Assembly: GCF_003111685.1 (NCBI RefSeq)
Contig: NZ_CP022189.1
Location: forward strand, 2,310,001-2,374,000
DNA: 64,000 nt
Direction: 5' to 3'
Origin: Alloyangia pacifica
GTDB lineage: Bacteria; Pseudomonadota; Alphaproteobacteria; Rhodobacterales; Rhodobacteraceae
Part shown: positions 9,275-18,035 of the stretch, in pieces
Layout: every line of letters begins with the position of its first letter
Position numbering within the stretch: the stretch's first letter is position 1
The notes under the pieces: generated by a model
What the model saw: the letters and a program-made list of their open reading frames with translations, nothing else
Databases searched by the model: none
What the model was told of the DNA's origin: nothing
Position numbers and translations under genes: made by a program

Positions 9275-9304
9275 TGTGATCACGCTTTTTCAAGTGTGAT
9301 CACA
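9275..9304. promoter_or_regulatory. paired TGTGATCAC operator upstream of sdhC
   Basis: TGTGATCAC at 9275-9283 and TGTGATCACA at 9295-9304. Each contains the 8-bp palindrome GTGATCAC, with centres 20 bp apart (about two helical turns), separated by a T-rich spacer. The element lies 121-150 bp upstream of the sdhC start. The same arrangement with 21-bp spacing occurs before sucC at 18005-18035. The binding factor is not identifiable from the window; the shape suits a dimeric repressor or activator acting cooperatively. Confidence 0.75.
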
Positions 9305-9421
9305 TTTATGGCGCTAACGGAGGCTTCCGCGGAGTCGCCCTATTCCCAAGTATTTAACTCGGATTTTTGCGGGGCAGCACCGCGACTCAAGCACCGCGCC
9401 CAGTCGCGCCGAGGCGTCAGA

Positions 9422-10453
9422 TCAGCGCGGGATCAGCGCCCAGTAGTCGAGGTCGAGCAGGACCTCCGGCAGGTATCTTCCGTCCTCGCTCTTGAGCGCG
9501 AAGGGCGCGCCGCCCTTGACCGCCACCAACCGCAGCCGCAGCGCACCGACGCCCGGCGCCGGGGTCTCGGCGCGATCCAGAACCTCGGACCATACTTTGA
9601 CCGTATCCCCGGCGAAACAAGGGTTTGCATGCGCCCCGCCGTTGAGCCCGGCGATCATCTGCGCGTTCGCCAGACCGTTGAAACTGAGCGCCCGCGCCAA
9701 CGAAATCACGTGCCCGCCATAGATCAGCCGCTTCCCGTCCTCGCGGTGGGTGGCGTCGAAATGCACCTTGGCGGTGTTCTGCCAGAGGCGGGTGGCGAGC
9801 ATGTGCTCGGCCTCCTCGATGGTCACCCCGTCGACGTGGTCGATCCGCTCTCCGACCGCGTAATCGCCCCAGCGGTGCGGCTCTCCGGCGAGGGTAAAAT
9901 CATAGTTTGTGAAGTCGAGCCCCTCGGGCATCACCAGATCCTCGGGCGCCAGAACCTCTTTCAGATCGGGCAGCACCGTCTCGGGCGCGGGCGCGTCGAG
10001 GTTTTTCTTTCGCACCATCACCCAGCGGCAATACTCCAGCACGGTCTCGCCGCGCTGGTTGGTGCCGCGCGTGCGGACCCAGACGACACCGGACCTGCCA
10101 TTCGAATTCTGCTTGAGCCCGATCACTTCGGAGGACGCGCGCAGCGTGTCTCCCTGATAAACCGGCTTCAACCAGCGTCCCTCGGCATAACCGAGGTTCG
10201 CCACCGCGTTCAGCGAGACATCCGGCACGGTCTTGCCGAACACCAGATGGAACGCCGCCAGATCGTCCAGCGGCGCGCCGGGCAGACCAACGCTCCGGGC
10301 GAAGTCATCCGACGAGTAAAGCGCATGCCGGGCCGGGTAGAGCGCGTGGTAAAGCGCCCTTTCCCCGCCCGACACGGTGCGCGGCACGGCGTGGTCTATG
10401 ACCTCGCCGATGCGATACTCCTCGAAGAAACGACCGGGGTTGGTCTTGGCCAT
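9422..10453 (-). CDS. mch: mesaconyl-C1-CoA hydratase (ethylmalonyl-CoA pathway)
   Basis: A double-MaoC-domain hydratase (343 aa) that converts mesaconyl-CoA to beta-methylmalyl-CoA. It shows the R. sphaeroides Mch pattern: MAKTNPGRFFEEYRIG at the start, ALYPARHALYSSDDFARS, then FGKTVPDVSLNAVANLGYAEG. The second hotdog half contains KVHFDATHREDGKRLIYGGH. The ATG at 10453 shares its A with the TGA of the DUF1737 gene, so translation is coupled; a GTG one codon earlier (10456) is possible. Position beside mcl2 and sdh matches the R. sphaeroides arrangement and makes a generic MaoC enoyl hydratase less likely. Confidence 0.93.
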   Translation of the reverse strand: MAKTNPGRFFEEYRIGEVIDHAVPRTVSGGERALYHALYPARHALYSSDDFARSVGLPGAPLDDLAAFHLVFGKTVPDVSLNAVANLGYAEGRWLKPVYQGDTLRASSEVIGLKQNSNGRSGVVWVRTRGTNQRGETVLEYCRWVMVRKKNLDAPAPETVLPDLKEVLAPEDLVMPEGLDFTNYDFTLAGEPHRWGDYAVGERIDHVDGVTIEEAEHMLATRLWQNTAKVHFDATHREDGKRLIYGGHVISLARALSFNGLANAQMIAGLNGGAHANPCFAGDTVKVWSEVLDRAETPAPGVGALRLRLVAVKGGAPFALKSEDGRYLPEVLLDLDYWALIPR

Positions 10454-10656
10454 CACTGCGCTCCCAGCTTCATGTCCGGGGTGTAGGGCGTGTCGACGTC
10501 CTTGGTCACGGCCTGCCCGCAGCGCATCACGCCGTTGGCGGCATCGAAGGCGTAGGTCGGGCTGCCGTAAAGCTCCCAGCCCTTGCTCAGGGCCTCGGAG
10601 ACCTTGTGGCAGAAGGCAGAGGTGTCGTCTTCGGTCAGCAGTCTGTAGATTTTCAT
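10453..10656 (-). CDS. DUF1737 domain protein
   Basis: A 67-aa protein matching DUF1737: YRLLTEDDTSAFCHKVSEAL at residues 4-23, then KGWELYGSPTYAFDAANG. It is a small alpha/beta fold with no signal peptide. It lies between the NnrU-like gene and mch on the same strand and overlaps the mch start by one base, so its product is made in step with mesaconyl-CoA hydratase. Function is unknown; a ligand-binding or regulatory role in the pathway would be inference only. Confidence 0.82.
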   Translation of the reverse strand: MKIYRLLTEDDTSAFCHKVSEALSKGWELYGSPTYAFDAANGVMRCGQAVTKDVDTPYTPDMKLGAQ

Positions 10657-10676
10657 GGGGTCAGTTCCGGTAGTTG

Positions 10677-11222
10677 TCATCCAAAGGTGGGATAGCCGAG
10701 CCAGGTGTGGATCGCGCCGATCACGAAGAGCAGCACGACGCTGGCCGCAAGGAAGATCAGGTCTTTCTTGATCGGCCCCTTGGCGGGCGGCGTCCAGTTC
10801 GGCTCGCTGCGGTTGATCGTGCTCATCTCGACCACCGCCCAGATCCCGAGCCCGCCGAAAAGCACGAAGGAGGGCACGTCGCCGTTCACCAGCAGGTGCG
10901 CGATGGCCCAGAGCAGGAAGCCGGTCAGCATCGGGTGGCGCATCTTGTAAAAGAGCGCGCCCTTCTTGGGGCCGGGCGAGGTGAAGTAGAGCGCCGCCAG
11001 CATCAGCAGGTTGTTGATGCCCACGGTGGCTGGGGTGCGCCCGTAGAAGAAGGCACCATCGGCCATGCGATAGCCGAAGATCATCAGCAGCACGCTGGCA
11101 ACGAGCGCAAGCGCAACCGCACCCTTGCCCTTGTCGCCCATCTTGGCCCGCGCGTCGGGAGCAAAGCGTTTGAACAGATGCGCCGCCCACCAGAGCGCGA
11201 CGCCGAGAATCAGAAGCAGCAT
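10677..11222 (-). CDS. NnrU family membrane protein
   Basis: A 181-aa integral membrane protein with five to six hydrophobic helices, matching the NnrU family (ALWWAAHLFKRF at the start, RHPMLTGFLLWAIAHLLVNGD in the middle). NnrU was named for a gene near nitrite/nitric-oxide reductase; related proteins (isoprenylcysteine methyltransferase-like fold) occur in many non-denitrifiers. It lies between mcl2 and the DUF1737 gene, with no denitrification gene nearby, so a nitrogen-oxide role is not supported here. Confidence 0.85.
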   Translation of the reverse strand: MLLLILGVALWWAAHLFKRFAPDARAKMGDKGKGAVALALVASVLLMIFGYRMADGAFFYGRTPATVGINNLLMLAALYFTSPGPKKGALFYKMRHPMLTGFLLWAIAHLLVNGDVPSFVLFGGLGIWAVVEMSTINRSEPNWTPPAKGPIKKDLIFLAASVVLLFVIGAIHTWLGYPTFG

Positions 11223-11261
11223 TGGGGGTCTCCTTGTGCCGTGTTCGGCCCGAGCCTGCCC

Positions 11262-16614: not shown

Positions 16615-16882
16615 CGCCAAAGAGAATCGCCCGATTGCCTGTGAATGCGGCAATTTGCGCCCGCAGGTTGCAGCACCTCGCTGCCCCTCGGGCTTCGCTA
16701 CGCATAGAAAGCATACGTTCGCATACCGGCGCTAACACACCGATAATTAACGCCTTTATCGCAACCATGCCGCGTGGTCAGCAATCGAGCTTCCGTGATG
16801 CTGCCCTGCAGCGCCCTTGCGCGTCGGCGGCAGAGACCTTACGCAAGCGGCGGACTTCACAAATGGAGCGGAGAACAGATCC
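16615..16882. promoter_or_regulatory. yehW-mdh intergenic region
   Basis: A 268-nt gap that must contain the mdh promoter. It holds a short direct repeat, GCATACG / GCATACC, around 16708-16729 and an AT-rich stretch (about 16735-16762). The TGTGATCAC element found before sdh and suc is absent here. Confidence 0.45.
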
Positions 16883-17845
16883 ATGGCCAGACCCAAGATT
16901 GCCCTCATCGGCGCGGGACAGATTGGCGGCACGCTTGCACATCTCGCGGCCCTGAAGGAACTCGGCGACGTCGTGCTCTTCGACATCTCGGAAGGCACCC
17001 CGGAAGGCAAAGCGCTCGACATCGCGGAATCCGGCCCCTCCGAAGGCTTTGACGCCAAGCTCAAGGGCACCCAGGATTATGCCGACATCGCGGGCGCGGA
17101 CGTCTGCATCGTCACCGCCGGCGTGCCCCGCAAGCCGGGCATGAGCCGCGACGACCTGCTGGGCATCAACCTCAAGGTGATGAAATCGGTCGGCGAAGGC
17201 ATCAAGGAAAACGCTCCGGACGCCTTCGTCATCTGCATCACCAACCCGCTCGACGCGATGGTCTGGGCGCTGCAGAAGTTCTCGGGCCTGCCCGCGCACA
17301 AGGTCTGCGGCATGGCCGGCGTGCTCGACTCGGCGCGCTTCCGCCACTTCCTGTCGGTGGAATTTGACGTGTCGATGAAGGACGTCACCGCCTTCGTGCT
17401 CGGCGGCCACGGCGACACCATGGTCCCCTCCGTCCGTTACTCGACCGTTGCCGGCATCCCGCTGCCCGACCTGGTCGAGATGGGCTGGACCACGCAGGAG
17501 AAGCTCGACGCCATCGTGCAGCGCACCCGTGACGGCGGCGCCGAGATCGTTGGCCTGCTGAAGACCGGCTCGGCCTTCTACGCGCCCGCGACCTCGGCCA
17601 TCGAGATGGCCGAAGCCTACCTCAAGGACCAGAAGCGCGTGCTGCCCTGCGCCGCTTACTGCGACGGCGAGTTTGGCCTGAAGGACATGTACGTGGGCGT
17701 GCCCACCGTGATCGGCGCCGGCGGCATCGAGAAGATCGTGAACATCAAGCTCAACAAGGAAGAGCAGGAGATGTTCGACAAGTCGGTCGCCGCGGTGAAC
17801 GGTCTCGTCGAGGCCTGCAAGGGCATCGACAGCAGCCTGGCGTAA
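16883..17845 (+). CDS. mdh: malate dehydrogenase (NAD+)
   Basis: A 320-aa LDH-like malate dehydrogenase that oxidises malate to oxaloacetate. NAD-binding [11 protein letters not shown] at residues 8-18, substrate-binding arginines in [14 protein letters not shown], and catalytic His176 in GGHGDTM. The start at 16883 gives the usual [10 protein letters not shown]; upstream codons are rejected. It precedes the suc genes but is separated from them by a strong terminator, so it forms its own unit. Confidence 0.97.
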
Positions 17846-17881
17846 GCCCTGCCTCAGCCCCGTGGGGCACCAGAAATCTTC

Positions 17882-17919
17882 GGGCCCCGGCGACAACATC
17901 GCCGGGGCCCATGCTTTTT
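17882..17919 (+). terminator. strong intrinsic terminator after mdh
   Basis: A perfect 11-bp stem, GGGCCCCGGCG (17882-17892) with CGCCGGGGCCC (17900-17910), 7-nt loop, followed by ATGCTTTTT. It isolates mdh transcription from sucC. Confidence 0.92.
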
Positions 17920-18004
17920 CGGGCTTTGCATGTCGCCTTCCGCTGCGGCAGCTTGCTGATTCTTTGGACCTCGGGCGCTAACGTAATTCCAGCGCAGTCG
18001 AGTT

Positions 18005-18035
18005 TGTGATCACGGTTTTTTAGCCCGTGATCACA
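18005..18035. promoter_or_regulatory. paired TGTGATCAC operator upstream of sucC
   Basis: TGTGATCAC at 18005-18013 and GTGATCACA at 18027-18035. The two GTGATCAC palindromes have centres 21 bp apart, and a T6 run lies in the spacer. It is 112-142 bp before the sucC ATG. Together with the sdh copy (20-bp spacing, T-run spacer, about 121-150 bp before the start) it defines a shared element for two TCA-cycle operons. Confidence 0.75.

Follow-up and report, generated by a model that had tools for sequence, protein, structure and literature searches.

Paired palindromes ahead of the sdh and suc operons of Alloyangia pacifica as very probable AkgR operators

Paired palindromes at the sdh and suc operons

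We analyzed a stretch of 64,000 nucleotides from Alloyangia pacifica (assembly GCF_003111685.1, contig NZ_CP022189.1, positions 2,310,001 to 2,374,000), hereafter the window, in which two sets of genes for tricarboxylic acid (TCA) cycle enzymes, sdh and suc, are each preceded by two closely spaced palindromes with the core GTGATCAC. As judged from sequence, it is highly likely that these pairs are operators of AkgR, a GntR-family protein with an FCD domain, and that two AkgR dimers activate both operons from them. Pfam or NCBIfam matches are consistent with sdhC, sdhD, sdhA, sdhB, mdh, sucC, sucD, sucA, sucB and lpd, and gene order and strand suggest that sdhCDAB and sucC-sucD-sucA-sucB-lpd each form one operon. 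The genes listed first were assigned by domain match, and the palindromes that follow were read directly from the sequence (window coordinates).

5458-6237, minus strand, sdhB
6555-8357, minus strand, sdhA
8373-8771, minus strand, sdhD
8759-9154, minus strand, sdhC, first gene of sdhCDAB
18147-19340, plus strand, sucC, first gene of sucC-sucD-sucA-sucB-lpd
19420-20304, plus strand, sucD
20448-23417, plus strand, sucA
23422-24960, plus strand, sucB
25854-27248, plus strand, lpd
9275-9284, minus strand, sdh pair, promoter-proximal palindrome TGTGATCACG, core GTGATCAC at 9276-9283
9295-9304, minus strand, sdh pair, distal palindrome, full TGTGATCACA, core GTGATCAC at 9296-9303
18005-18014, plus strand, suc pair, distal palindrome TGTGATCACG, core GTGATCAC at 18006-18013
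18026-18035, plus strand, suc pair, promoter-proximal palindrome CGTGATCACA, core GTGATCAC at 18027-18034

The two pairs had been proposed in a first-pass annotation of the window as a matched operator for a TCA-cycle regulator, and its description of them held up on direct reading. Two GTGATCAC palindromes precede sdhC and sucC, with centers 20 bp apart in the sdh pair and 21 bp apart in the suc pair, at 121-150 bp from the start codon of sdhC (position 9154) and 112-142 bp from that of sucC (18147). The spacers contain the T5 and T6 runs that it noted on the plus strand; because sdhC lies on the minus strand, the T5 run of the sdh spacer reads as A5 in the direction of the gene. The annotation had also stated that mdh lacks such a pair, and none was found when positions 16600-16960 were searched.

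GTGATCAC occurs five times in the window against an expectation of 0.87, a number reached in 0 of 100 shuffles. The fifth copy (54509) falls within an open frame of 547 amino acids whose translation reads like a transporter permease. Scans of the whole genome (5,165,968 bases in seven contigs) for exact pairs with spacers of 11-14, 8-24 and 2-32 bases, a check that the first-pass annotation had called for, returned the sdhC and sucC pairs alone, so the motif is not simply present at chance frequency. One other full TGTGATCACA is present in the genome (C2:1040972), ahead of a gene that by its translation resembles surE.

TGTGATCACA also resembles the CRP half-sites TGTGA and TCACA, and a site for a CRP/FNR-type protein was considered on this ground. 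CRP requires six bases between the halves (TGTGA-N6-TCACA), whereas the halves abut in both the sdh and the suc sites. A passage of PMC4344238 states that no proteins analogous to CRP are predicted for R. sphaeroides. This candidate was rejected as very unlikely.

Conservation of the pair among relatives

We next surveyed 394 genomes of the same family, the Rhodobacteraceae by assigned lineage and in keeping with the Cereibacter matches described below, representing 393 genera. With spacers of 11-14 bases the pair was found in 358 of them, giving 671 pairs in total: 36 genomes had none, 58 had one, 288 had two, 11 had three and one had four. The reversed pattern, used as a control at the same spacers, was found in none of the 394. 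Widening the spacer to 2-32 bases added just 67 pairs over 27 other lengths, along with two control pairs (in genomes G243 and G340; G and L numbers are our own handles for genomes and loci). Loci with 97 distinct pairs were parsed, mostly the first-listed ones rather than a random draw, and duplicates were dropped by identical spacer. Ninety-one of these pairs have a center-to-center distance of 20 bp (11 pairs) or 21 bp (80 pairs), and the other six, with different spacings, had been fetched for that very reason. All 91 lie ahead of TCA-cycle genes, namely sdhC (43), sucC (46), sucA (1) and fumC (1), the last two having been assigned by hand (sucA, L218; class II fumarase, L209). The spacer sequences between the palindromes vary widely among relatives, so the palindromes themselves are probably under selection. 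The pair is thus a real and strongly conserved feature. Lack of conservation upstream of sdh and suc in relatives, which the first-pass annotation had named as grounds for abandoning its proposal, was not what we found.

Outside the family the pair is scarce. Among 386 alphaproteobacterial genomes at least 80% complete, it was present in all six family members and in five of the 380 others, and those five loci gave no match to seven TCA-cycle query proteins from the window. A genome of another alphaproteobacterial family (G535) has a 21-bp GTGATCAC pair at L168 992-1020, with a TonB receptor-like gene on one side and a GntR gene on the other. The encoded GntR protein is 28% identical to AkgR and up to 37% identical to its relatives in A. 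pacifica, and distant members of the GntR family may use the same pair geometry.

Twenty loci from 14 genomes were picked for unusual pair counts. Eight of their 20-21 bp pairs lie ahead of sucC, four ahead of sdhC and seven elsewhere. The seven off-target pairs, all exact, are as follows.

L248 (genome G296), 1037-1065, exact 21-bp pair ahead of an acetyl-CoA acetyltransferase gene
L256, pair ahead of a queuosine-precursor transporter gene
L253, pair near a PotF-like gene
L249, L250, L251 and L255, pairs within long reading frames

An exact pair is therefore no proof of an operator by itself, since off-target pairs exist and four of them are inside reading frames; some of the seven are likely due to chance. 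This is also what speaks for regarding the sdh and suc pairs as a chance occurrence or a structural repeat with no regulatory role, an explanation that we consider extremely improbable. Pairs precede the same two operons in relatives despite the divergence of the spacers, the reversed control was empty in the family survey, and the whole-genome and family counts rule out a chance origin.

Triple palindromes were seen in some of the 14 genomes, with spacings of 21+21 bp ahead of sucC in three (L257, L259 and L260, from G285, G135 and G191) and of 32+21 bp ahead of sdhC in one (L265, from G263). The pair ahead of the class II fumarase gene (L209 994-1022, genome G042) is an additional exact 21-bp pair. 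Together with the pair at the acetyl-CoA acetyltransferase gene of G296, it suggests that the regulon has grown in some genera. A 2.6-Mb genome (G265, L261-L264) contains 11 GTGATCAC pairs of varied spacing, with clusters of three to five sites, which may reflect a wider regulon or a repeat.

The regulator and the promoter architecture

The AkgR regulon of R. (Cereibacter) sphaeroides is reportedly the subject of Imam et al. 2015, in which AkgR is said to be equated with RSP_0981 and CceR with RSP_1663; we take RSP_0981 to be AkgR. A passage of PMC6365646 gives GTGATCAC among the AkgR binding sites of R. sphaeroides and terms AkgR a transcriptional activator, and a passage of PMC4344238 predicts that RSP_0981 (GntR) controls sucCD, sdh and sucAB in that organism. 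The same palindrome is located upstream of sdhC and sucC in the window, and the sdh and suc operons are the same targets.

A gene for the regulator was sought near the pairs and genome-wide. The sole GntR hit in the window (C1:2359879-2359983, 23.1 bits) is below the curated cut-off, and the fetched GntR proteins had no tblastn match at an expectation value (E) of 1e-3 or less in 20 relatives' loci, fetched around the pairs at lengths of up to 20 kb. In Luteovulum (Cereibacter) azotoformans and C. johrii a GntR gene and the sdh pair are separated by about 5 kb, a spacing that agrees with the numbering of RSP_0974-6 (sdh) and RSP_0981. The 49 GntR domain hits in A. pacifica yielded 40 loci, among which the orthologue of this gene encodes a protein of 217 amino acids (C2:85945-86595, on a contig other than that of sdh and suc). 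It is 73% identical to the azotoformans protein and 76% to that of C. johrii, compared with 38% for the next-best GntR protein, and has the GntR (PF00392) and FCD (PF07729) domains. Its equation with RSP_0981 is by position and family. The regulator of the pairs is very probably this already described AkgR.

The distribution of AkgR follows that of the pair. Searching the 394 family genomes gave 368 matches at E of 1e-30 or less and 356 at 1e-70 or less. At the stricter cut, AkgR was present in 348 of 358 pair-bearing genomes and in eight of 36 pairless ones (Fisher p 2e-27, uncorrected for phylogeny); at 1e-30 the figures were 352 of 358 and 16 of 36 (p 6e-19, likewise uncorrected). Operator and regulator therefore co-occur by these uncorrected statistics. 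In the set of 386 Alphaproteobacteria, AkgR with at least 76% identity was detected in the same six family members as the pair, and the best match in each of 12 other matching genomes was at most 42% identical, like a paralogue in A. pacifica. The loci of the relatives and this co-occurrence support the earlier proposal that the pairs shared by sdh and suc are the operator of a TCA-cycle regulator.

A second connection comes from akgR itself. Of the 30 top-scoring akgR matches, 28 loci were parsed, and in 21 of them a single GTGATCAC starts 16-28 bases ahead of the akgR start as assigned by script, which ties the palindrome to akgR independently. This single site probably serves to repress akgR in many relatives. 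In one genome (G187, L220 950-970) two GTGATCAC palindromes 13 bp apart are directly upstream of akgR. These observations bear on the idea that an AkgR paralogue of the GntR/FCD type (e.g. L067, 34-38% identical) acts on the same sites, alone or in competition with AkgR. The G535 pair beside a distant GntR gene indicates that the palindrome is common to the subfamily, and A. pacifica has 49 GntR domain hits. We nonetheless regard a paralogue as quite unlikely: it is high-scoring AkgR that tracks the pair over the 394 genomes, at a cut of 1e-70 that excludes paralogue-level matches (AkgR was the one GntR protein profiled in this way), and it is at the start of akgR that GTGATCAC is found in 21 of 28 loci.

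Promoter-like elements downstream of the sdh pair provide information on how AkgR might act.

9210-9215, minus strand, GTGACA, -35-like, beginning 61 bases downstream of the sdh pair, putative promoter element
9186-9191, minus strand, TAGAAC, -10-like, 18 bp after GTGACA, putative promoter element

Of the 43 distinct sdhC pairs in the parsed family loci, 33 are followed by a GTGAC box that starts 58-61 bases downstream, four have the box elsewhere (at 49, 79, 80 and 81) and six have none. The A+T content between pair and promoter oscillates with a period of 10.5 bp for sdhC and 9.5 bp for sucC. Tested on 29 sdhC and 28 sucC related sequences with rotation of each sequence as the null, the phasing power was 1.06 and 1.44, respectively, where the 99% level of the null was 0.19 and 0.23. 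The box position, the A/T phasing and the triple arrays fit dimers stacked on one face of the DNA by an upstream activator.

We propose that one AkgR dimer would bind each GTGATCAC palindrome, and that in A. pacifica two dimers, two helical turns apart, would occupy one face of the double helix upstream of the promoters of sdhCDAB and sucCDAB-lpd. Cooperative binding, part of the first-pass proposal, is favoured by the narrow 20-21 bp spacing and the 21+21 bp triple arrays. With their phasing of about 10 bp, the A/T tracts probably either introduce a bend in the DNA or bind the C-terminal domains of the RNA polymerase alpha subunits, which would let the upstream dimers touch the polymerase. 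Activation would act on both operons at once and thereby place the conversion of 2-oxoglutarate via succinate to fumarate under one signal. The opposite sign of regulation, in which the pair is a repressor operator through which AkgR or a related protein would keep sdh and suc off until a ligand lifts the repression, is unlikely. Many GntR proteins are repressors, and the single site at akgR is suitably placed for repression. The pair, on the other hand, is well upstream (about 58-61 bases) of the sdhC -35-like box, a more usual place for activation, and AkgR is termed an activator in the portion of PMC6365646 cited above.

More tentatively, we entertain the doubtful possibility that the sign of regulation depends on the number and phase of the palindromes. 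A single site at its own start would repress akgR, and phased double or triple sites with phased A/T tracts at a fixed rotational setting would activate sdh and suc. Such an architecture would have arisen with AkgR in one family and shared its later retention or loss.

Several observations weigh against the assignment of the pairs to AkgR as upstream activator. AkgR is not the sole protein linked to the palindrome, as seen from the distant GntR gene beside its own pair in G535 and from PS417_07240 of Pseudomonas simiae, which a passage of PMC6365646 proposes to use GTGATCAC. The seven off-target pairs listed above belong here as well. Ten of the 358 pair-bearing genomes have no clear AkgR (seven of the ten are less than 90% complete), and eight of the 36 genomes without a pair at spacers of 11-14 carry it. 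No GTGATCAC with up to one mismatch was found in the 260 bp upstream of akgR in A. pacifica, so autoregulation through it was rejected for this organism, and six other of the 28 parsed akgR loci also lack the single site. Neither the co-occurrence statistics nor the A/T phasing test is corrected for relatedness. Measured from 59.5, the four exceptional sdhC boxes are displaced by whole helical turns to within 1.5 bp, a fit with a chance of about 0.02 for a cut chosen afterwards. For sucC, a GTGCC-type box was seen at 65-68 in just 13 of 46 promoters and none was recognized by the pattern used in 25. A -35-like box phase common to both operons thus found no support (about 59-60 for sdhC, 65-68 for sucC where seen), and the sparse and differently placed sucC box weakens the case for a single promoter geometry.

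Comparison with known systems

The regulator and its motif had been described previously, and the protein sought by the first-pass annotation can now very probably be named. In the sampled family most genomes have the pair (358 of 394) and most have AkgR (356 of 394, at E of 1e-70 or less), whereas both are rare or missing among the 380 other Alphaproteobacteria. Upstream activation is less usual for the GntR family, and the narrow spacing makes for simple predictions about how a protein of this family would achieve it. Carbon-flow models for this group of bacteria could treat three consecutive TCA-cycle steps as a single regulated unit.

A second regulator was compared because of its predicted targets. 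RSP_1663 is presumably CceR, a LacI-family regulator of central carbon metabolism, and differs from AkgR in both DNA motif and protein family. For R. sphaeroides, a passage of PMC4344238 predicts that RSP_1663 controls sdh and mdh. No full match to the CceR operator (the RSP_1663 motif, [AGT]GTT N6-8 AAC[ACT]) was found upstream of sdhC, mdh or sucC. GCGCTAAC, which is half of GTTAGCGCTAAC, a sequence like the RSP_1663 motif, has exactly three copies in the window, upstream of sdhC (9311-9318), mdh (16729-16736) and sucC (17975-17982). Against an expectation of 1.14, three copies were reached in 8 of 100 shuffles, which makes the number unremarkable and the positions striking. In relatives, GTTAGCGC or GCGCTAAC is located within 150 bp of the pair in nine of 43 sdhC and five of 46 sucC regions, compared with 0.2% of control stretches.

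Among GntR proteins, the nearest solved structure to the AkgR orthologue by sequence is that of McbR (YncC) of E. coli (PDB 4p9f, E 3.4e-21), a distant sequence with other targets. PS417_07240, associated with deoxyribonate genes in P. simiae, shares the GTGATCAC palindrome and the GntR family and is, according to PMC6365646, 32% identical to AkgR; it differs in its pathway and in having, as described in the same paper, one conserved palindrome that spans -47 to -40 relative to its own start. The closest system is the AkgR regulon of R. sphaeroides, with the same palindrome, the same sdh and suc targets and an orthologous GntR/FCD regulator. In Cereibacter the gene for that regulator is some 5 kb away from sdh, and in A. 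pacifica it is on another contig. Genome sequence is our source for the 20-21 bp pairing, the promoter spacing, the triple arrays and the single akgR site, and we make no claim that these are absent from the literature on that regulon.

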